From: Larkinella soli
GTDB taxonomy: Bacteria > Bacteroidota > Bacteroidia > Cytophagales > Spirosomataceae
Assembly (NCBI RefSeq): GCF_003703975.1
Contig: NZ_QTJY01000002.1
Span: forward strand, 496,001 to 560,000
Reading direction: 5' to 3'
DNA length: 64,000 nucleotides
Part shown: positions 2,769 through 22,055 of the stretch, one piece after another
How positions within the stretch are numbered: the first letter of the stretch is position 1
Layout: each line of letters begins with the position of its first letter
Program-made: the position numbers and the translations under genes
Notes under the pieces: model-generated
Database searches by the model: none
Seen by the model: only the letters and a program-made list of their open reading frames with translations
What the model was told of the DNA's origin: nothing

Positions 2769-3683
2769 TTACTGGTACAGAAAATTGATCGGGCTGGGCG
2801 TGAAGCGGAAAATGATTTCATGAACGCTTTTCTGCGGGAAATACGGGTATTCGATCGTCTGGCTGCTGAAGGAATACCCCACCCGGATGGTGTTCGCCAG
2901 CTGATATTCAGCCATCAGCACCACATAATTCTGCGTACTGATGAGGGTGCTGTTGTTGGCCCGGTACGAAATGCCCAGGCCAAGTTTCTGTTCCAGCCAG
3001 GCTTTGGCGTTCAGGTCGATACCAAGCGGAAGATCATTCTGCTGGGTCAGCAGGATCGACGGCAGAAAGACGATGCTTTCCCCGGCGTCGAACCGCCCCC
3101 CCAGATTCACGAAGAGCGGGCGCTGGTAGGTAAGGGGAGCCGCCTGGGAAACCGCCAGAGCCAGCGGCCGGCTGACGAGTTCCGGCTTCGATATTCCGGC
3201 CCAGAACCGGTCCGCCTGGTAATAAATGCCAAGCCCGAAACTGGGGAGCACTTTGTTGATGCCGGCCGAGGTGGACGGATCATAGATCGGAAGAACATTG
3301 ATTCCTCCCGAGGCCCCGATGGACAGTTTGGAAAGGGCGGTAACATTGAACCGGTACGCAATTGCCCCGGAGATCCCGGTGGCCGAATAGAGCCCCATCC
3401 GATCGTTCAGAGCCAGCAGCCCCAGACCGACTTTCCCGCCCGGGAGCGCGCCGTCGGCCCCGAAAGTCTGGGTAACCGGGGCACCGGGAACCGAGAACCA
3501 CTTGCGCCGAAAAACCGCCGTCATACTCAGCACGTCACGGCTGCCGGCATAGGCCGGATTGATGGTCAGCGGGTTGATCATATACTGGGAATACAGGACT
3601 TCCCGCTGTGCAGACACCTGCTGACCTCCGGCAATCAGCAGAATGGAAGCAATCGCAAAAGTCCGGACGAAGGATCGAATCAT
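2769..3683 (-). CDS. Type IX secretion membrane protein, PorP/SprF family (copy 2)
   Basis: A 304-residue outer-membrane beta-barrel protein. It has a signal peptide ending near VSAQ, then the family hallmark YSQYMINPLTINPAYAGSRD and alternating hydrophobic strands to an aromatic C-terminus (FLYQ). PorP/SprF proteins work with the type IX secretion system and anchor or help export a partner protein that carries a type B or gliding-type C-terminal domain. This is the last of the three secretion-related genes after the giant adhesin. It is the second PorP-like copy and clearly diverged from the one at 6126-7115. The gap to the upstream OmpA gene is 53 bases, consistent with one transcript. Confidence 0.9.
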   Translation of the reverse strand: MIRSFVRTFAIASILLIAGGQQVSAQREVLYSQYMINPLTINPAYAGSRDVLSMTAVFRRKWFSVPGAPVTQTFGADGALPGGKVGLGLLALNDRMGLYSATGISGAIAYRFNVTALSKLSIGASGGINVLPIYDPSTSAGINKVLPSFGLGIYYQADRFWAGISKPELVSRPLALAVSQAAPLTYQRPLFVNLGGRFDAGESIVFLPSILLTQQNDLPLGIDLNAKAWLEQKLGLGISYRANNSTLISTQNYVVLMAEYQLANTIRVGYSFSSQTIEYPYFPQKSVHEIIFRFTPSPINFLYQ

Positions 3684-3736: not shown

Positions 3737-6100
3737 CTAATCAACCCGTAAAATTTTAATTTCCGTCCGCCGGTTATACTGGTGGGCGGCCTCCGAACAC
3801 GGAACGCCGTCGCGGCAGGAGTTCAACGGATTGCTTTCTCCGTACCCTTTGGCCGTGACACGCCCGGCGGAAATGCCTTTCTTTCGAAGGTAAGCTGCCG
3901 CCGACCCGGCCCGTCGTTCCGACAGGACCTGATTGTAACCGGCCGGAGCCCGGCTGTCGGTATGCGACCTTAATTCTATTTTCATGGTCGGGTACCGCTT
4001 CATCAGCGCGGCCAGTTTATCCAGCTCGGCGGCCGCATCCGCCCGAATCATCCACCGGTTGAGGTCATAATGAATGTTTTCGATCCGGAGGATGTCCCCT
4101 TCCGTAAACATGGTTACATCGGCGGCCGTATCCGAACCGGCCCGGACGCCGGCTCCGGCCGTCCCCATACAATCCCGAAAGGCTTCCACGAAATAATGGC
4201 AGCCCGGGTCGACAAAAAAGGCATAGGTGCCGTCGGCCCCGGTGAAGGTTTCCAGCACGGTACTGTCACATTCGCTCCGGATGACGACCCGGACACTGTC
4301 CAGAGGCAGGCGGCCGGTTTGCGACAGAATCCGGCCCTGAATCCTGGCCTTCTTTTTCAGGGGTACGTGCATTGGTATTTCCAGAAGCAGGGGCAGGTCG
4401 TCGGACAGCCCTTTGGTTGAAAATCTTACCCGTCCGGGCTGATAGCCCTCCAGAAACGTATCGAAACGGAAGTCACTTTCCGGGTCAAGGCAGAGCCGGA
4501 CATTGCCTTCCTTGTCGGTTTGCCGGGTGTTTTTCTGATCCGGGACCTCTTTTTGTTCCACCTCGACCCGGGCGTTTACAAGCGGTTTTCCCGATTCGGC
4601 GTCGACCACACGTACCGTCAGTTCCCGGCAGGGATACAATGGGCTAACCCGTTGAAAGCGGTAAATGTCGTCGTCGTTCCCTCCCTGCGACCGGTTGCTG
4701 CAGAAAAAGCCGTGGATTCGCCCGCCGTCGGTAAGCATACCGAAATCGTCCTGGGATGAGTTGAAGGGCTCTCCCAGATTCCGAACCGACCGGACGCCGG
4801 TTCCCTCGGTCAACTGGGCATAAAAAAGGTCCAGCCCACCGAGTCCGGGGTGGCCGTCCGAAGAAAAATACAGGTTGCCCCGGTCATCGACGAATGGAAA
4901 CAATTCATTTCCCACGGAATTGATCGAACTACCGAGATTGACCGGATCGGTCCACTTGCCGTCGACAAGCCGGGAAACGTACAGGTCGGTTCCGCCAAAA
5001 CCGCCCGGACGGTCGGAAGCGAAATACAGCAGCCGGTCGTTGGGGCTCAGGGCAGGGTGGCCGGTTGAATACGCATCGCTGTTGAAGGGCAGTTCCTGCA
5101 GGTTCAGCCAGGCACCGCGCCGATTTTCGGCCGAATAGATTTTCAATTTGTTGACTCCTTCGGCACTGACGCCATACCGGCCCCTGAAGTAGTTATTTCT
5201 CGTAAAAAAGACCCAGGATCCATCTTTGGTAAAAGCGGCCGGCCCTTCATGGTACTTTGTATTCAATGCCGGGGAAAAGCGCCGGGTGGGGCCGATGTCC
5301 GTCCCGGATGATTCGGGCAGAGGACCGGATAAGTCAGGCCTGAATCCGACCGTCGGAGAATCATTGGCAGTCGGTCCGGTGTTCTCATCCTCTCCGAGTC
5401 TCCGGGGGGTTCTTCCGGCTGTTTTCCGGCGGGTGGCCGCTTCTCCGCTCAGGGAGGCCACAGGGTCTTTCAAAACCGGCGGTTCAGGCAGATAATACAG
5501 ATCGAGGAAGGCGGTGTGATCCCACTGGAAAACCCGTTTCAGGGCATTACCCTGACGGCGGTTGGTCACGAATACCAGGCCGTCCCGGTAATAGGTGGGG
5601 CTGAATTCCGCCCGGTTGGTATTGATTCCAAGAAACTCGATCCGGTAATTTCCGGCATCGCGTGTCAATACGCTGAGGTCACTGTACAGATTCGAAAAGT
5701 GTTTTCCCCGGGGGTCTTCCGGCCGATACCGGTCATAAAGACGATAGATTTCCTGAGCGTCCCGGTACTTTCCGTTCCCGGCGAGGGCCTGAGCATAATA
5801 CAGGTAGCAGGGCAGGAAGTCCGTCGTCGGTTCTTTCAGTCCACGGATCAATTTCTCGTACACCCGCTCCGCATTCCGGGAGTCGTGTAACTGGCGGTAG
5901 CTGAAGGCCAGTTTTTTCAGGATGGGCCGCTGCGCTTCCTCCGACAGGATCGTCCGGTTCAGCACCTGTTCGTATAATTCGACCGCCTGGGCGTAGGCCA
6001 GATTATCAAATTCATGGTCAGCCTGCCTGAGCACCGACTGAGCCCTGACGGAGCCGAAAAGCCAAAACAGAAGGCACCAGGAAACGTAGAGTCGGAGCAT
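3737..6100 (-). CDS. PorE-like OmpA/PD40/TPR outer-membrane protein
   Basis: A 787-residue protein with an N-terminal signal peptide ending near VRAQ. In order it has TPR-like helices (about 25-130), a WD40-like PD40 propeller (about 150-480; motifs such as LYFASDRPGGFGGTDLY and YFSSDGHPGLGGLDLFY), two carboxypeptidase-regulatory-like beta domains (about 490-650) and a C-terminal OmpA domain (about 670-787). The OmpA part has the peptidoglycan-binding pattern HTDSRAPAGYNQVLSERRA. This layout matches PorE-type proteins, which tie type IX secretion components to the cell wall. Between the PD40 blades there is a low-complexity stretch rich in R, P, G and T. It lies 25 bases after the first PorP gene, in the adhesin operon. 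Confidence 0.88.
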   Translation of the reverse strand: MLRLYVSWCLLFWLFGSVRAQSVLRQADHEFDNLAYAQAVELYEQVLNRTILSEEAQRPILKKLAFSYRQLHDSRNAERVYEKLIRGLKEPTTDFLPCYLYYAQALAGNGKYRDAQEIYRLYDRYRPEDPRGKHFSNLYSDLSVLTRDAGNYRIEFLGINTNRAEFSPTYYRDGLVFVTNRRQGNALKRVFQWDHTAFLDLYYLPEPPVLKDPVASLSGEAATRRKTAGRTPRRLGEDENTGPTANDSPTVGFRPDLSGPLPESSGTDIGPTRRFSPALNTKYHEGPAAFTKDGSWVFFTRNNYFRGRYGVSAEGVNKLKIYSAENRRGAWLNLQELPFNSDAYSTGHPALSPNDRLLYFASDRPGGFGGTDLYVSRLVDGKWTDPVNLGSSINSVGNELFPFVDDRGNLYFSSDGHPGLGGLDLFYAQLTEGTGVRSVRNLGEPFNSSQDDFGMLTDGGRIHGFFCSNRSQGGNDDDIYRFQRVSPLYPCRELTVRVVDAESGKPLVNARVEVEQKEVPDQKNTRQTDKEGNVRLCLDPESDFRFDTFLEGYQPGRVRFSTKGLSDDLPLLLEIPMHVPLKKKARIQGRILSQTGRLPLDSVRVVIRSECDSTVLETFTGADGTYAFFVDPGCHYFVEAFRDCMGTAGAGVRAGSDTAADVTMFTEGDILRIENIHYDLNRWMIRADAAAELDKLAALMKRYPTMKIELRSHTDSRAPAGYNQVLSERRAGSAAAYLRKKGISAGRVTAKGYGESNPLNSCRDGVPCSEAAHQYNRRTEIKILRVD

Positions 6101-6125: not shown

Positions 6126-7115
6126 TCAGAAATACCGGGGTGTCAGGATCTTGTTTTTCCCGAAGCCGAGTTCGTAGCGGATCATAAACTCGTGGGAGGG
6201 CAGCCGGAACAGTTTCAGGTTGTTCAGCATCTTGTCATAGGCATACCCCAGCCGCAGTTGCTCCGAAATCTGCACTTCCACGATGCCGACGATGGCGTCC
6301 TGATTGTATACTTCCCCATTCACCCGGGCACTCTCGTAGCTGTTGAACTGGTTGCGCCGGTACGAAACGCCCAGAGAAAGCCGGTCGGCGAGCCAGAAAT
6401 TGACGTTGCCGTCGATGCCCAGCGGAGACCCTTCGACATATTTCACCAGGGCCGACGGCTTCAATTTTAGTGTCGGGCTAAGGCCAACCACAAATCCGCC
6501 CATGGCATAGAGATGGCGACGCTGCCGGGCGCGCTGGACGCCCGAATCGTAATCGGTCAGCCGGTTTTTCACCAGTTGGGGAACCGACAGCCCGAAATAA
6601 GTACGATCATTGCTGATGTAAATGCCGGTTCCAAAATTGGGCAGGATTTTGGAAATATTCTGGGCAAACGCCGGGTCACCGCCCTGATCGGTCCGGACGC
6701 TCGCCAGATCGGCCCGGAAACTGCTTGCCCCGGCCTGAAGCCCCAGCGCGAGGGTGGTTCGGTCTCCCACCCGAATCCTAAACGCATAGGAAGCATAAGC
6801 CCCCGTCGTATTGTATTCGCCGATCCGGTCGTTGAACAGTTGCAGACCCAGCCCTACGCGCTCCCGGTTGACCGGCATATCCAGCGTAAACGTCGTCGTT
6901 TGGGGTGCGCCCTCTACCCCTCCCCATTGGTTCCGATACATGGCGGTCATGCTCAGCACATCCCGGCTGCCGGCGTAGGCCGGATTCAGCGCCATCATAT
7001 TGAACATATACTGCGAAAACATATGGTCCTGCTGGGCCAGGGCGGGCCGGCTGCCCGCGAGGAACGCCAGGAAGAGGGCCGTCCTCCCGCATTGAGATAA
7101 AATGCTTCCTTTCAT
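6126..7115 (-). CDS. Type IX secretion membrane protein, PorP/SprF family (copy 1)
   Basis: A 329-residue barrel protein with a signal peptide ending near PALAQ, followed by the PorP/SprF signature (FSQYMFNMMALNPAYAGSRD). It starts 13 bases after the stop of the giant adhesin. In Bacteroidota a PorP/SprF gene immediately downstream of a SprB-like or gliding-domain adhesin normally encodes the dedicated partner needed to place that adhesin on the cell surface. That is the likely job here. Two PorP copies flanking an OmpA/PD40 protein is richer than the usual single pair. Confidence 0.92.
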   Translation of the reverse strand: MKGSILSQCGRTALFLAFLAGSRPALAQQDHMFSQYMFNMMALNPAYAGSRDVLSMTAMYRNQWGGVEGAPQTTTFTLDMPVNRERVGLGLQLFNDRIGEYNTTGAYASYAFRIRVGDRTTLALGLQAGASSFRADLASVRTDQGGDPAFAQNISKILPNFGTGIYISNDRTYFGLSVPQLVKNRLTDYDSGVQRARQRRHLYAMGGFVVGLSPTLKLKPSALVKYVEGSPLGIDGNVNFWLADRLSLGVSYRRNQFNSYESARVNGEVYNQDAIVGIVEVQISEQLRLGYAYDKMLNNLKLFRLPSHEFMIRYELGFGKNKILTPRYF

Positions 7116-7128
7116 GGTCTTAAAGTTA

Positions 7129-10100
7129 TTAGCGATTGATAGTCATGAATCTGATGAACCGGCGCCCGTCACTCAACCGGATGACGTAGAAATAGGTCCC
7201 ATCCGGCACCCCTTTCGACGCTGACCCGACCCGAAGACCGGTATTGGTCGTGCCGTCCCAGTCGTTCCGGTAGTCCTCACTGCGGTACACGGCATGACCC
7301 CACCGGTTGAAAACTTCCAGGATGACTTTGGCTCCACCCGTGTTCCGGATGACGAACTGGTCGTTGATATGGTCACCGTTTGGAGAGAAGCCTTCGGGAA
7401 TGATGAGTTCTTCCGCACTTCCTTTCAGCAGCAGCGGGGTGGGCACTTTCTCGAATTCCTCGGTCGGATCGTTGTTGCCGTTGATATCTGGGTTAAAACC
7501 GTCGGTCGACAGATCGGTGACCGTATCCGATCCGGCCAGTGCGGTGGCATAGACACGGCTCAGGTAGGGTGCGGACCGTCCGTCGGTCCGCACCCGAACC
7601 TCCACCAGAAGGGTGTCGCTTCGCCCGGCAGGCAGTTTGCTGCCGGATTTCAGGAGACCGGGCTGGGCCTCTCCGTCAAACTGCTCGTTGACAAGCAGTT
7701 GTGTACCTGCCGAAACCCGGATGGGATGCGTGACGGTGAAGGAAGCCCCGCTTGTGGTATTGAATACTTCGGAAAGCCGTTTCTGCAACTGGACCGATGT
7801 AAGGTCGATGCCGGAATAGTTTCGAACGATTACCTGATAACCAACCTTATACGTACCATCCGGCTGGAGGGTGGTATCCCGGACGGCCAGCGCTGCCCCG
7901 ATTTTCGGTTCGGCCGACAGGCCCGGCAGGGTCACCATCGTCGGAACGCTGTTGTTTCGCGGGTCAAGATCGTTGTCGGGGTCGGGATTGGACCCGGCGG
8001 TCGAGGTATCGGCGACCATGGCCCCTCCTTGAAGCAAGGCACCGGCAACGGCGGTATTGTCGAAACGCCGGGTGCGGCTGTTGCGAACGTCGACCCGGAC
8101 GGTCAGGGTAATGTTGCGGCTGGTTCCGCCCGGCAGAGTGCTCAGGGAATCGACCAGCAGGTTTGTCAGCATGCCCTGGCCGGTGTAGGTCGTATCGACC
8201 GTCAGGCCGGCGTCGGCCGTTATTTTCGGTTTACCGGGGCCGATCAGAACCTCCTGGCCAAAGGCTTTCCCGAGGTCATCGATCACTTTCACCTTGCGAA
8301 GTTCGTCCCCACCCATATTCTTCAACCGGATCCGGTAGGTAATCTGGTAAGCCCCGTTACCCAGATCTTCCAGCTTTTCTACCGCCTTCGCAACCCCCAG
8401 CAGGGAGGGCGGCAGGTCGAACCGCAGGCCGGTCGGAATGCTGCCTACCGGATGCGGATTGAAGCCGTTGTTGGATAGGTCGGTAACCAGTGTATCGCCG
8501 TATTTTCCCTCCCCGACTACCTGCGTGTAGAATGGTCCCATTTTTCCGTTGGGCTTGATATTGACCGTGATCCGGACGGTATCCTGGGCGCCCACCGGCA
8601 AGCTGCTGACCGTACTGTCGAGCAGGGCGGCAACTCCATGCCCGTCATATCCGGCATTCGGTTTCAGCGTGCTGTTTGTTCCAACGGACGGCGGACTTAC
8701 TACGGTAAACTGGGTTGGTGTGTGAAAGGCCGCGATGAGGCTGTCGGACAACTGCACGTTTTTCAGTGGGGTGTTCCCGTAATTTTTGACCGTAACCTGA
8801 TACGTCACATTATAGCTGCTGTCGACCCGTTGCTCAACGCCGGCTACGGCCAGAGCTACCCCGATCTGCGACGCCGGTGGTGAGTCGAAGCGGGCCGGCG
8901 TCGGCTCGCTGTTGTTATTGGGATTCCCGTCGTTGTCGGGATCAGCCTTTTTACCGTTCGTAGACTGGTCTTCCAGCGTCAGCGTATCCAGTTTGGCCAC
9001 CAGATAAGCCTGATTCATAAAGGTTTTGGTCAGACTTCCATCCGGATGCAGCCGGACCTGGACCTTCAGCACGATACGCTCCGTAGTTCCGGCTTTCACC
9101 ACACTGGCCGTATCCAGCAGTTGGCTGTGCCCTACCCGGCCGGTGTATGCAGAGTTTACCCTGATCAGGGCAGGATGCTCCGGCATCACCTGCACCGACT
9201 CGATCACATGCGGATCGAATACCGACTGAACATCGTCATTCACCTGGACCCGTCGGGCATCCCGGTCGCTGTAATTGGTCACATTGATTTCGTAGGAAAA
9301 TTCATACAGGGTCTCTTCCTTCTGTTCCACCCCTTTCAAGGCCTTGGCCATCCCGAGCACCATGGCTTTCGCCACCGTGCTGTCCTGAATCACCACCGTG
9401 GCCTTGTTGTTGGAAAGATCCGGGTCTACCTGGTCCAGATACGTGATCTCCACCAGACTGGAAATCGGGCCTTTGGTCAGCAGACGCGCCTTGTAGTGGA
9501 AGGAAACTTCATCATTTTCCGGCAGGATGGTAATCCAGGCGCCCAGGTGACCGTGCGCGTCGACCACCAGATTTCCCGGCGATACCAGTTCCAGACCCGA
9601 AGGCAGGATGATTCGGATATCACTGTGCGTAGCCGCGCAACGTCCTTTATTGCCCAGTTTAACGGTGAATGTGACGGTTTCCCCGACTTTCGGGCGCAGG
9701 TTATCGGCGGTAACTTTAACATACATGTCAGTCCGGCAGGTATCCGTATTACAGTCGAAAACCGAAACGTCGATCATGGTCGGGGCGCTGTAACAGCCTG
9801 AGAGACTCCGTTCGAAAGCATAGAAGACTCCCCGGCCCACGGAATCCGGACGGATGACGATGGGTGAAGCCGGCTTGTCGCCCGTTCGGAATTCGAAACG
9901 GCCGCCCGCCGTCACCGGACTGCTTTCAATCAATTCGGTCAGGTCGACCGTATGGCCCGGACAGGTATTCCGGGCCATCATGGGGGCCACAGGCGATTCA
10001 ATCGGCCCGCTGACCGTGATGCTTACCGGGTCCGAGGACAGCGAGGTACATCCCTTCCCGTCGACAAGCTGCACCGAGTAGGCCCCTCCGGTTTTCACGA

Positions 10101-13100: not shown

Positions 13101-13257
13101 CTTTGCATTGAGCCGTATAAGTAGTTGATACCGTCGGCGTTACAAGGACGGACGTTCCCGTTGAGCCGGTCGACCAGATGACGGTGCCGGTGCAGCCGTC
13201 CGCATGCAGGGCCACTTCGTCACCCGGACAGACGGAAGTCGTGGCACAGGTGATCAC
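7129..13257 (-). CDS. Giant repeat adhesin, C-terminal part, with gliding-motility C-terminal domain
   Basis: 2042 residues in this frame, but the ATG at 13257 is probably not a real start: it is the continuation of the gene at 13220-15478 after a frameshift at the C run (13298-13305). The part seen here has about 11 Ig-like repeats of roughly 75-80 residues. Each has a conserved pattern like C-G-x-x-V-x-L-T-A-x-G-C, then WS(T/N), and usually a second Cys pair. Around residues 850-1130 are less regular domains, then about five DUF11-like domains (pattern YQVTVKNYGN). The end is a CHU_C/gliding-motility-associated domain (IPEGFSPNGDHINDQF, then FNRWGHAVYRS), which targets the protein to type IX secretion. 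It is probably a surface adhesin like SprB. Downstream PorP and PorE-like genes fit this. Confidence 0.88.
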   Translation of the reverse strand: MITCATTSVCPGDEVALHADGCTGTVIWSTGSTGTSVLVTPTVSTTYTAQCKVGNCLGKPSKPIIIKVSNPQPPTITADSYTICAGGSVTLTAAGCEGKVIWSTGVTGNVIVVSPESPTTYYANCRILNCLSGPSQKVTIHSGPLPIPQISVSDEEICPGEKSVLTISNCSGIPQWSTGQTTASIDVSPSQTTSYTVVCRQGTCISPVSAARTVTVSKPQPPSVDISADTVCLGNQVQLTAMGCSGTVLWSNNLQGSSISVAPTANTTYRAYCKIGSCQSELSQPVSVVVVNPAAPIIKASRTLICAGEAVQLTALGCEGGTIVWSNNMQGSLITVMPGNTTTYTASCKVHNCLSSVSNALVVNVSNSNAPVPTLTASATAVCKGEPVTLTAAGCGAGTVVWSTGATGNSLVVSPTSSTEYHAACRMNEQCNGNPAKVTVLVNTPPKPTIRVCKCTEGRICLGDEIRLTVEGCTGSPLWSNGATTGSIVVSPSMTTIYSVVCRSEQCSSDPSESYTVVVGTPVPPVVTTSKTEITPGEAVVLSATGCVGGQIIWSTGATGTSITVNPTATTSYFAQCKIHGCLSDPATVVIKVKGDCPGTAPRVSASDPLVCYGGSVTLTATGCSGGTVLWSNGMTGTSLVLTNITAHKPYTAVCRQSEECRSEASDPVSVSVITMYAPTIAASKPVICPGETTELTAVGCPGTVVWSTGATGTSIVVQPVATTDYWATCNKGGCVSDKSPLNTVKVSSPASPTISATSGTVCFGASVTLTASGCDGGYVVWSNNQVGPQLIISPATSATYTATCCNSASCKSGKSNEVVVKVYPKVKPPVALNISNVCPFATADLNRAVGGSVSTTSGVVEFYNGTTPDPAAKVATPGSVPAGTYYVFEKTINGCFSQPGKVVVTISNCNQVPLCTTSPASVTAGSDALICAAKDYKLNGVIGGAATSAVWTSSGTGVFDNPGLLNATYKPSTADIQAGSVTLTLTTNDPDGAGSCKPAFASLKLTIQGISVKPTVSFDKTVLCHGDSIVLTAQPEGYKYLWNTQATGRSLLVKTGGAYSVQLVDGKGCTSLSSDPVSITVSGPIESPVAPMMARNTCPGHTVDLTELIESSPVTAGGRFEFRTGDKPASPIVIRPDSVGRGVFYAFERSLSGCYSAPTMIDVSVFDCNTDTCRTDMYVKVTADNLRPKVGETVTFTVKLGNKGRCAATHSDIRIILPSGLELVSPGNLVVDAHGHLGAWITILPENDEVSFHYKARLLTKGPISSLVEITYLDQVDPDLSNNKATVVIQDSTVAKAMVLGMAKALKGVEQKEETLYEFSYEINVTNYSDRDARRVQVNDDVQSVFDPHVIESVQVMPEHPALIRVNSAYTGRVGHSQLLDTASVVKAGTTERIVLKVQVRLHPDGSLTKTFMNQAYLVAKLDTLTLEDQSTNGKKADPDNDGNPNNNSEPTPARFDSPPASQIGVALAVAGVEQRVDSSYNVTYQVTVKNYGNTPLKNVQLSDSLIAAFHTPTQFTVVSPPSVGTNSTLKPNAGYDGHGVAALLDSTVSSLPVGAQDTVRITVNIKPNGKMGPFYTQVVGEGKYGDTLVTDLSNNGFNPHPVGSIPTGLRFDLPPSLLGVAKAVEKLEDLGNGAYQITYRIRLKNMGGDELRKVKVIDDLGKAFGQEVLIGPGKPKITADAGLTVDTTYTGQGMLTNLLVDSLSTLPGGTSRNITLTVRVDVRNSRTRRFDNTAVAGALLQGGAMVADTSTAGSNPDPDNDLDPRNNSVPTMVTLPGLSAEPKIGAALAVRDTTLQPDGTYKVGYQVIVRNYSGIDLTSVQLQKRLSEVFNTTSGASFTVTHPIRVSAGTQLLVNEQFDGEAQPGLLKSGSKLPAGRSDTLLVEVRVRTDGRSAPYLSRVYATALAGSDTVTDLSTDGFNPDINGNNDPTEEFEKVPTPLLLKGSAEELIIPEGFSPNGDHINDQFVIRNTGGAKVILEVFNRWGHAVYRSEDYRNDWDGTTNTGLRVGSASKGVPDGTYFYVIRLSDGRRFIRFMTINR

Positions 13258-15478
13258 CGGCGGCAGAACGCTTCCATCGGGACAGGAACAACTGGAAGGG
13301 GGGGGAAACCGCGATGGTAACCGTCCGGGTAAGGGTGCAGTTCGGACCCCCGCTATCGCTAACGATTACCGTATACGTAGTAGCACTGGTTATATTTCCG
13401 GCGGTGACGCTGCTTCCGCTCGAAGCCGACAAACCGGGTCCCGCCCATAGAAAGCTTAGATTTCCTGTGCCCCCGGCGGTTACCGACAGCGTCACGCTTC
13501 CGCCGGAACAGACCGCCGGTTGAGAAGCGGAAACCGTAGCCGACAGATTACAGGGCTGTACCGGGGGCGGGCAGGTGCCGACCACGACACTGGTAGTGGC
13601 CGTCGCAGTACAACCTTCTGTGTTGGTGACTACCACCGTGTAATTGCCGGAATGCATAGCGGTGGCTAAAGAAATTTCGGGATTCTGCAGGTTGCTCGTA
13701 AAACCGTTCGGCCCTTTCCACACATAAGAAGCTCCCCCTGAAGCACTTAAGTTTATCTTCGCCGAAAGGCTGGTTGCTGGAGGGGCTCCTGCACAAACGG
13801 TTGAACTGGTCGCAGAGGCTACAGGTGGTGTACACCCGCAGGGTTTGACGATCACAGGCGAGGTGGCGGCTTTGGAAATACAGCCATTCGGACTGGTAAC
13901 GGTTACGGTGTAACTGCCGCCATGAGTCGTCTGAGCACCTGTGACGGTTACGCTTTGCCCCGAAGAATAAAACCCGTTCGGACCATTCCAGATATAAGCA
14001 AGAGGCCCGGGGGCGCCCGTGGCGGTTGCCGACAGGCTGAAGCTGCCTCCGATACAGGCGCCGGCACTGCCGGCTTGGGCCACGATTACCGGTTTGGGCA
14101 GAACGGAAAGGGTGGTAATAGCGGTTCCGCTGCAACCGGCCGCTCCCGTTACGACCACCGTGTAACTGCCGGCATAGGCAATGGTAGCTTCCGGAATGAC
14201 CAGATTCTGCTGCGAGCTGGTAAACCCGTTGGGACCGTACCATCGGTAAGAGGCCGCCCCGGCCGTGGCCGACATCAAGATGGGGTTCCCTTCGCACACC
14301 GGACTATTGCAGGTCGCAGTCGGCAGGGTTCCGATGGAAACCGTCGTTCCGGCCGACGTCGTACAGTTGGCAGCGTCGGTAACTTTAACGGAATAAACGC
14401 CGGCATTAGCCGTTGTGGCTACGGGAATGGTCGGATTCTGGCTGGTACTGGCAAAACCGTTCGGCCCCGACCAGACATACTGGTAAGGGCCGGTGCCGTT
14501 CTGAATGGACGCACTCAGGCTTAGCGGCCCCGCTTCACAGGTTGAAGAAGCGTTGACATTCACCGCCAGCCCGCACGCCGGCCCCGGGATCACTTCAATG
14601 GGGCAGCACCCTCCTACGGGGCAACTGCCCATCGTTCCGGTAAATGCATAAACACCGGGCGACTTGATTATCAGGGTACTTCCGCTGGCCACCGCCTGAT
14701 CGGCCGCAAACTGGGTCTGACCATTCCGTGTCCACTGGACGGCCGTTACATTGATCGGTATGGTTACCGTATATTCTTCGCCCGCATACCAGTGGATCGG
14801 TACCGTGAAACAGGTAAGTGCGATGTCGTCTTCGGATAGAATATGATTGTTGGGCGTGGAATTGGGATCGGTGCCCTGCATGGCGATGATTTCTGCCGCA
14901 TTGAACCAGACGCCCCTTTCGATTACTTTAGCTTTCAGTTCCAGAACGGCGGAATCGCCGGCGGCAATCGTTCCGATGTTCCAGATTCCGCTGCCGGATG
15001 AAAACGTAAAGGAACCGGTTCCCCGCAGAATTGAATGACCGGTGTAACCGGCTCCTGCTGCCAGATCATCTTTAACGACGACCCCACCGGCAGCCGACTG
15101 GCCGTCATTGGCAACTACGACCGTGTAAGTGATGATATCATTCAGGCCGGGGTGCGAATGACTCACCTTCTTATGAAGATATAAATTCGGCTGAGCCGTC
15201 TGACCGGCTACCGCAGCGGCATAAAGCAAACCGACCAGAAATGAACTGAAAAAAGCTGCCGGTCTTCCGGCCTTCCAATTTTTTAATTGCAATGCCAAAC
15301 AAATGAAGACCTCAACAATGAAGGAATGGCTCCGCCGGCGTTCCGAACCGCCGGATAGGGTCACGGTGCGGTCATGCAGATGTCTGCCGATGGGGTAGTT
15401 TTTTCCAGAAGGGATGGTTACTGAATCCGGTGTAGCTGTTCTGTTCATCTGCATAGCTATTAATTCACTCTCCGACAA
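13220..15478 (-). CDS. Giant repeat adhesin, N-terminal part (truncated by frameshift)
   Basis: 752 residues in this frame. The first 60 or so residues look untranslated. A signal peptide (QLKNWKAGRPAAFFSSFLVG, ending near VAGQ) starts at an in-frame TTG at 15292, which is the more likely start. After it come a DUF11 domain (NLYLHKKVSHSHPGLNDIIT) and about five Ig/PKD-like repeats with the recurring pattern W-x-GPNGF and a pair of cysteines. The frame ends with about 35 residues (from QLFLSRWKR) that fit no repeat. Removing one C from the run of eight joins it to the 7129-13257 frame and restores a normal linker (SSCSCPDGSVLPPVITC). The joined protein would be about 2720 residues from the TTG. 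Confidence 0.85.
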   Translation of the reverse strand: MSESELIAMQMNRTATPDSVTIPSGKNYPIGRHLHDRTVTLSGGSERRRSHSFIVEVFICLALQLKNWKAGRPAAFFSSFLVGLLYAAAVAGQTAQPNLYLHKKVSHSHPGLNDIITYTVVVANDGQSAAGGVVVKDDLAAGAGYTGHSILRGTGSFTFSSGSGIWNIGTIAAGDSAVLELKAKVIERGVWFNAAEIIAMQGTDPNSTPNNHILSEDDIALTCFTVPIHWYAGEEYTVTIPINVTAVQWTRNGQTQFAADQAVASGSTLIIKSPGVYAFTGTMGSCPVGGCCPIEVIPGPACGLAVNVNASSTCEAGPLSLSASIQNGTGPYQYVWSGPNGFASTSQNPTIPVATTANAGVYSVKVTDAANCTTSAGTTVSIGTLPTATCNSPVCEGNPILMSATAGAASYRWYGPNGFTSSQQNLVIPEATIAYAGSYTVVVTGAAGCSGTAITTLSVLPKPVIVAQAGSAGACIGGSFSLSATATGAPGPLAYIWNGPNGFYSSGQSVTVTGAQTTHGGSYTVTVTSPNGCISKAATSPVIVKPCGCTPPVASATSSTVCAGAPPATSLSAKINLSASGGASYVWKGPNGFTSNLQNPEISLATAMHSGNYTVVVTNTEGCTATATTSVVVGTCPPPVQPCNLSATVSASQPAVCSGGSVTLSVTAGGTGNLSFLWAGPGLSASSGSSVTAGNITSATTYTVIVSDSGGPNCTLTRTVTIAVSPPFQLFLSRWKRSAAGDHLCHDFRLSG
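13298..13305 (-). other. Frameshifting run of eight C (coding strand) in the adhesin gene
   Basis: The plus strand has eight G in a row, so the adhesin mRNA reads eight C. The upstream frame enters as V-S-P-P-F and runs out about 80 bases later. With seven C (or ten) the reading continues as V-S-P-P-S-S-C-S-C-P-D-G and joins the repeat domains without any loss. The join is exact: protein patterns on both sides are typical of the same family. It may be a sequencing error in a homopolymer, a true inactivating mutation, or a slippage site that switches the adhesin on and off. Confidence 0.9.
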
Positions 15479-20845: not shown

Positions 20846-21409
20846 TCAGTGTTTTTCGGTGATGGAAACGGTCCGCTGATGGGCTACAAACTCTTCCCGA
20901 AGCAGGGCGAAGATGTGTTCGTCGAGGTAGCGGCTGTTTTTGATGGCGGCCTTTTTCAGAACCGCTTCCGGCCGAAAACCGGCCTGCATCAGTACCCGCA
21001 TCGAGGGCTCGTTCCCTTCCAGGACGCAGCCGAACAGCCGATTGACCTGGAAGTTGGTAAAGATGTAATTGACCATGGCCGGTACGGCCTCCGACATGAT
21101 GCCGTGCCCCCAGTAATTTTCCCCGAGCCAGTAGCCGATTTCGGCATTGAAGCGATAAATATCTTCCTTGATGGTGAATCCGACGTTACCGACCGCCTTC
21201 CCTCCCACATCGACCGCCAGATTGACCGGCTGCTGATAGGAACGGTTCATGCGAATCCACGAGCTGGCGTCGCGGACGGTATAGGGATGCGGAAAAAAAT
21301 CCCGGACACGGTCCCAGATTTTTCGATTGTTGGCGTGCTCCGATAGTGAGTACTCGTCGCCGTCCCGCCAGGGCCGCAGAGTGCAGGTATCGAGGTAAAT
21401 GACTGCCAC
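20846..21409 (-). CDS. GNAT acetyltransferase, RimJ/RimL type
   Basis: 187 residues from a GTG start at 21409 (reading M-A-V-I-Y-L-D-T-C). Longer ATG starts would run into lutC and add an unrelated stretch, so the GTG is preferred. The RimJ/RimL pattern is clear: RPWRDGDEYSLSEHANN at the start, IGYWLGENYWGHGIMSEAV for the acetyl-CoA loop near residue 100, and FGCVLEGNEPSMRVLMQAGF. Members acetylate protein N-termini, small amines or antibiotics; the substrate here is unknown. It follows lutC by 58 bases on the same strand and may be read through from it. Confidence 0.87.
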   Translation of the reverse strand: MAVIYLDTCTLRPWRDGDEYSLSEHANNRKIWDRVRDFFPHPYTVRDASSWIRMNRSYQQPVNLAVDVGGKAVGNVGFTIKEDIYRFNAEIGYWLGENYWGHGIMSEAVPAMVNYIFTNFQVNRLFGCVLEGNEPSMRVLMQAGFRPEAVLKKAAIKNSRYLDEHIFALLREEFVAHQRTVSITEKH

Positions 21410-21467
21410 GTTGCTGACTGTTTTGGTCCAATATACACTTTTTACAACATGGCCGGACAATTTTCGG

Positions 21468-22055
21468 TTACGAATTTTCCAATAAAATGACGGAAAGACT
21501 CCGTGCCCCATGCGCGCCAATGACCAGCGACTGCTCGATATCGGCCGTTTTGGAGGGCCCCGCAATGAACACTCCAAACCCGGACGCTCCTACCGAAAGC
21601 CGCTCATAAGCCCGGTGCATATTCTCCACCAGATCGGCCGTCCGGACCACCATAACCAGGTGCTGACAGATGAACGGCAGCACCCGATGCCCGACGGACT
21701 CTTCCGGAATCCAGATGGCCGAATTTTCGGCCACGCCGAACTCACCCGGAATCACGGCCAGGTCCACCGAGGCCAGGTCGTGCGGGTCGACGACGTCGTA
21801 CCGCATCGTGGTCAGAGACTCCAGACCGGGCACCAGGCTGATCACGTTCGGCAGGTCGCTGTACGTTTTCCGGATGTAGGTTTCCGCTTCCGCCAGATCG
21901 GGAACCACCACCGGCGTCCCGCCCACGAACTTCAGCACTTCCGAAAACGTTTCGGTCAGGTCGGGGAAGTTCGATTCAAAGGTACTCTTCTCCGGCAGCG
22001 GCCGCAGGGCCGGTTTGTTCTCCCGGATGGCCGCCAGAATACGATCTCGACTCAT
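21468..22055 (-). CDS. lutC: L-lactate utilisation protein LutC (LUD domain)
   Basis: 195 residues forming one LUD domain. Visible patterns are VPDLAEAETYIRKTYSDLPN, the ENSAIWIPEESVGHRVLPF core near residue 115, and the C-terminal GPSKTADIEQSLVIGAHG, which is typical of LutC. With LutA and LutB it makes the iron-sulphur complex that oxidises L-lactate to pyruvate. It lies 65 bases after lutB. The same gene order (lutA, lutB, lutC) is known from Bacillus, though here lutA is detached. It likely serves the L-lactate produced by the fucose pathway encoded nearby. Confidence 0.93.
   Translation of the reverse strand: MSRDRILAAIRENKPALRPLPEKSTFESNFPDLTETFSEVLKFVGGTPVVVPDLAEAETYIRKTYSDLPNVISLVPGLESLTTMRYDVVDPHDLASVDLAVIPGEFGVAENSAIWIPEESVGHRVLPFICQHLVMVVRTADLVENMHRAYERLSVGASGFGVFIAGPSKTADIEQSLVIGAHGARSLSVILLENS

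Follow-up and report, generated by a model that had tools for sequence, protein, structure and literature searches.

In Larkinella soli, the gene for a giant repeat adhesin with the features of a type IX secretion cargo is divided between two reading frames at a run of eight C residues. On balance, we lean towards the reading that this run slipped to its out-of-frame length, by an indel in the isolate that was sequenced or not far back in its ancestry, and we rank such a real event ahead of an error in the consensus sequence, which has a substantial but distinctly smaller claim. A dedicated phase-variation switch appears improbable and recoding on the run more improbable still. The initial annotation of this DNA had named a silenced gene, a slippage switch and a read error as the candidate explanations, and this caution was right. 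The break lies in the window, by which we mean the whole stretch of 64,000 nucleotides that was analyzed (contig NZ_QTJY01000002.1, positions 496,001 to 560,000), and the genome that carries the broken adhesin comprises 6.92 Mb in 82 contigs.

The features of the locus are collected in Table 1. The two adhesin ORFs together form a gene of 8353 nt, and both are long and free of further stops or frame breaks. Translation of the N-terminal ORF likely begins at a TTG near 15292, and the residues that follow this codon are hydrophobic and signal-peptide-like as judged by eye only. If translation indeed starts there, the size of about 2720 residues given by the initial annotation fits the coordinates. 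The GTG with which the C-terminal ORF opens is internal to the gene and probably not a real start, and this ORF seems, also by eye, to carry no signal peptide. Conversely, Pfam searches found no CHU_C domain in the N-terminal ORF. Since the CHU_C end and the adjoining PorP/SprF-like gene are both present, the domain content identifies the adhesin as a type B cargo of the type IX secretion system, and exposure of its product on the cell surface is predicted from the same two features. For the PorE-like gene further downstream, no TPR match was listed by Pfam. Near-identical repeats that would invite a misjoin during assembly were absent from the adhesin gene, the one repeat noted in it being 71 nt long at 82% identity.

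Table 1. Features of the adhesin locus, in window positions.
Feature	Coordinates	Strand	Remarks
C8 homopolymer run (G8 on the plus strand)	13298..13305	-	Site of the frame break, in the linker between two Ig-like domains
Adhesin N-terminal ORF, 752 aa as listed	13220..15478	-	DUF11, then Ig-like repeats (Pfam)
Last Ig_7 domain of the N-terminal ORF	13301..13537	-	Pfam Ig_7, residues 648-726 converted to coordinates; ends at the C8 run
Adhesin C-terminal ORF, 2042 aa	7129..13257	-	Ig_7 repeats, DUF11 repeats, CHU_C at the end (Pfam)
CHU_C type IX secretion signal domain (type B C-terminal domain)	7165..7404	-	PF13585, 1.2e-21, residues 1952-2031 of the C-terminal ORF
PorP/SprF-like gene for an outer-membrane partner, immediately following the adhesin	6126..7115	-	PF11751, 4.4e-82
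PorE-like gene	3737..6100	-	PD40 propeller, carboxypeptidase-regulatory and OmpA domains (Pfam); layout as for PorE in the available text of PMC9143113
Second PorP/SprF-like gene	2769..3683	-	PF11751, 1.1e-50

The claim that the two adhesin parts lie in different frames at an eight-C run is borne out by the sequence, which has exactly eight G at these plus-strand positions, C8 on the coding minus strand, and by the frames of the 752-aa and 2042-aa ORFs that flank it. Stop codons alone would leave the break anywhere in an interval of about 13223-13365. Similarity narrows this considerably: in blastx comparisons, the match of the N-terminal frame to four relatives (L052, L054, L055 and L057) ends at 13301, while the best match of the C-terminal frame, to the relative G221, starts at 13293 and the others start further in. 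A few weaker matches to other repeat copies overrun the run slightly on either side, to 13277 from the one and from 13323 on the other. Because these limits of similarity and the end of the last Ig_7 match, at residue 726 or position 13301, all meet there, we place the frame break at the C8 run, in the linker between two domains. No second G/C run of at least six occurs anywhere in the gene, so that a single such run would fall inside the stop interval of roughly 140 nt by chance in about 2% of cases (simple arithmetic), and a chance coincidence of run and break is accordingly the less likely account. The existence of the run is itself unsurprising, since similar ones arise by chance both when the codons of the two ORFs are shuffled synonymously (a G/C run of at least eight in 211 of 500 shuffles) and under an order-2 Markov model (about 1.1 such runs expected per 64 kb, one seen).

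The initial annotation had proposed a comparison of the locus in relatives. All seven of the named records nearest to this genome belong to Larkinella (65-67% identity), and an orthologue of the adhesin is present in all eight congeners. In each of them an uninterrupted frame leads from the C-terminal part into the Ig repeat corresponding to the one at which the N-terminal ORF ends, although in two (G005 and G007) the contig covers no more than the final residues of this repeat. The adhesin is whole in one frame in G001 (3056 aa) and G003 (3731 aa); its upstream parts are hidden in the other six, by contig ends in G002, G004, G005 and G007 and by runs of N in G006 and G008. Four genomes of the family beyond the congeners were fetched as well. 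The site could be aligned in two of these, G220 (3119 aa) and G221 (2703 aa), where the adhesin frame is open across it, and was not located in G217 and G173. Alignment A1 used seven of nine sequences, L005 and L009 being left out. Judged from these open frames, the two adhesin ORFs are one gene in the relatives, and the claim that a single gene has been split at C8 holds. None of the eight congeners, nor G220 or G221, has a G/C run of at least six within about 45 residues of the site. Given that the relatives checked keep the gene open there, a simple slip, either real or a sequencing mistake, is the probable origin of the break.

A further way to reconcile a broken frame with a functional gene is recoding, in which the ribosome or the polymerase would slip on the run and so make a share of full-length protein. 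The proline codons of the run are of a kind that could slip, and the frame downstream is conserved. Neither the frame break nor the run occurs at the site in the ten aligned relatives, however, so there is no conserved recoding signal, and we consider recoding a very unlikely explanation.

The relatives also differ from our gene by a module of about 180 residues at the place of the break, which all eight congeners possess. In L052 it corresponds to residues 831-1014 of the 3056-aa frame and consists of an NPTSC..GSIT domain followed by an Ig-like domain. A deletion or misjoin in the Larkinella soli gene was considered as the source of this difference and rejected, since the module is likewise missing at this place from G220 and G221; its absence alone does not mean misassembly. 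In these two genomes the Ig domain is followed by a short Cys-containing linker and then by the same next domain, as in the two frames of our gene read in order. Most simply, the alignments suggest that the module is an addition in the congeners, or else a loss here. In G003, the N-terminal half of the adhesin (L054) carries tandem Ig repeats with 76-97% DNA identity over 0.2-1 kb, reaching 97% over 506 nt, unlike the gene described here, and the same part of the gene coincides with a contig end in four congeners and with an N gap in two. The repeat identity in G003 together with these shared contig ends and gaps suggests a change of copy number by recombination. The adhesin family thus changes both by gain or loss of domain modules and by repeat expansion.

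More widely, adhesin matches at E <= 1e-200 were found in 66 of the 222 genomes sampled from the family. Most of them are long open frames, though some of the 66 may have common domains rather than be orthologues. Among the 67 matches listed, nine frames are shorter than 2600 aa. Four of these lie at contig ends and one contains an N gap; the others are those of the present genome (2078), G173 (1709), G207 and G052. The G173 sequence (L119), from another genus, is an orthologue-like adhesin that is frame-broken in an Ig-like repeat near a C5 run, around 6732-6774 of the reversed strand. Separately, the orthologous adhesin of G006 contains an in-frame run of nine G elsewhere in the gene (L057:8563-8571). 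A different kind of interruption was seen in a small CHU_C gene of G002 (L017), which has an in-frame stop, not a homopolymer run, after 211 residues at about 1482 of the reversed strand; its counterparts in congeners are frames of about 303 aa.

Homopolymers are the classic site of indel errors. An error of consensus or assembly, in which the run was miscounted and the gene of the isolate is intact and in frame, is the main competitor of a real indel. The break is shared by none of the relatives aligned at the site, and the adhesin gene is otherwise undamaged, both of which favor an error. In the same direction, the available portion of Antonov et al. 2013 (PMC3711429) holds that a frame break which stands singly, outside any cluster, and has database hits should be a sequencing error and not a genuine indel. 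Against an error speaks the general state of the genome, with a listed completeness of 99.98% and contamination of 0.35%. Of 35 window genes that could be placed against G001 and G003, 34 are in frame and the adhesin alone is split over two frames. A second two-frame match, at about 21226-21758, was discarded, as it stems from an ORF antisense to two neighboring genes that each match in one frame. In the 264 kb around the locus, 102 genes (115,983 nt) were placed against G001; placed genes cover about 116 of the 264 kb, and the adhesin was the only one flagged as frame-broken. The filter for such flags demanded at least 50% identity for the best piece and at least 45% for the second, with limits on gaps. 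Against G003, 101 genes were placed and one weaker candidate was flagged (52% and 46% identity, outside the window, with no run nearby), the adhesin having been missed because of the extra repeats and the module in that genome. The reverse comparisons flagged four candidates into G003, five into G001 and six for G001 into G003. Short end pieces were frequent among these candidates. Near two of the last six there is a run of six A and a run of six T, and the others have no run of at least six.

The remaining G/C runs of the genome bear on the same question from two sides. There are 38 of at least eight in total, of which nine could be judged; the other 29 lie near gene ends, between genes, or where no domain evidence spans the run. 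A codon-usage frame scan around all 38 was too weak and did not call the frame correctly even for the adhesin; frames were therefore judged from ORF spans and Pfam domains. Seven of the nine are in frame inside or between Pfam domains, in genes for an ABC transporter, a glutamate synthase, a subtilase with Ig_7, a gamma-glutamyltranspeptidase, a rhamnosidase (where the run sits at the very start of the domain), a TonB-type barrel and a SusD protein. This speaks against a consensus that miscounts such runs. The two judged runs in broken genes speak for it: besides the adhesin, these include a CheB-type paralogue (L093:2258-2908, contig C28) with a frame disturbance right after its C8 run, an in-frame stop, and similarity that ends after about 260 residues, the counterpart in congener G008 being an open frame of 1743 aa. 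The existence of a second broken gene next to an eight-base G/C run is a point against a real indel in the adhesin, though L093 has further lesions. Two other candidates were dismissed: L073 (C8) looks, by eye, like the end of a sugar-kinase-like gene before the next gene, and in L067 (C9) the AHSA1 domain is already complete before the run. The longest G/C run among the 38, of ten bases, was found together with an eight-base run in L077 (2512-2521 and 3014-3021, contig C6), both in frame in a single 577-aa ORF that has no Pfam match and looks by eye like a membrane protein. Taken together, the assembly is not visibly error-rich by these comparisons. Of the possible read error raised initially, an error-rich assembly is thus unlikely, and a single wrong run length is possible; we regard a consensus error at C8 as plausible, if the less probable of the two leading accounts. 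Were it true, the annotation would need correction.

A real slippage indel remains the reading that we prefer, by modest preference only. In that event, translation would end about 25 codons past the run. The resulting shortened fragment of Ig repeats might still be exported by Sec, but would lack the CHU_C domain, on which both the PorP-like partner and the type IX apparatus depend, and the adhesin would not be displayed, that is, it would be off. The C-terminal ORF alone would not be secreted, as it has no apparent signal peptide. The break seems to be recent, since about 8.3 kb of gene show no other lesion; the several independent lesions that mark an old, decaying pseudogene are not seen in the adhesin, which has this one break only. 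The run could slip back, and nothing shows that such slip-back is under selection. The open gene in the checked relatives suggests that loss is disfavored, which counts against a real indel. If the break is real, the isolate is without its giant surface adhesin, which matters for any work on adhesion, biofilm or motility with this strain.

A frame break in a homopolymer of a surface-protein gene is an already known kind of event. Poly-C and poly-G contingency loci occur in Neisseria, Helicobacter and Campylobacter. It is against this background that a dedicated switch has to be weighed, in which a hypermutable run is kept for turning the adhesin on and off. The locus resembles such a system in that a long run lies in a surface-adhesin gene at the frame break (C8, with boundaries of similarity at 13301 and 13293), where a slip removes the anchoring domain. 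It differs in that the run stands deep inside the gene, a long way from the start, and in that contingency loci keep the run at its site in relatives, at varying lengths, whereas the eight congeners, G220 and G221 have no G/C run of at least six within about 45 residues of the site. The number of G/C 8-mers in the genome (49, counted with overlap) lies within the congener range of 21 to 91, and runs of the same length also stand in genes such as those for glutamate synthase and the ABC transporter. With a run at chance frequency, an unremarkable 8-mer count and no run near the site in these relatives, nothing marks C8 as a maintained switch. The switch suggested initially thus finds its only support in the run itself, and it is improbable that the run serves to turn the adhesin on and off. 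We likewise doubt that this is a lineage-specific C8 switch of a wall-anchored type IX adhesin of about 2700 residues in an environmental Bacteroidota. If it were one, homopolymer phase variation would be extended to type IX secretion cargo, of which we found no description in the portions of the open-access literature searched, a weak negative. For other bacteria, the available parts of PMC2831843 and PMC3711429 describe the switching of surface genes by homopolymers as a familiar phenomenon. The nearest likeness, from the accessible text of PMC2831843, is the poly(A) tract of inlA, also a homopolymer in the coding sequence of a surface protein; there too, tract length determines the reading frame, and the product is cut short ahead of the part that anchors it.

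As a secretion locus, the region resembles PG1035-PorP-PorE of Porphyromonas gingivalis, as described in the available sections of PMC9143113, in its CHU_C-type C-terminal domain and its PorP-like and PorE-like neighbors. It is unlike that locus in that the Larkinella cargo is a frame-broken Ig/DUF11 repeat adhesin of some 2700 residues, for which secretion is predicted. In its giant, repetitive type B cargo beside a PorP/SprF-like gene, it is also reminiscent of SprB/SprF of Flavobacterium johnsoniae. There, according to the same sections, sprB and sprF have no adjoining porE-like gene, whereas a PorE-like gene stands near the adhesin/PorP-like pair in Larkinella, setting it apart from an SprB-type gliding adhesin locus. 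The same source proposes that a link to PorP-PorE-like complexes holds a cargo in place on the cell wall, and that SprB, by contrast, moves. By that proposal, the PorE-like gene at this locus points to a fixed, wall-anchored rather than a mobile adhesin, and by analogy the Larkinella adhesin, when intact, is probably of the fixed type.
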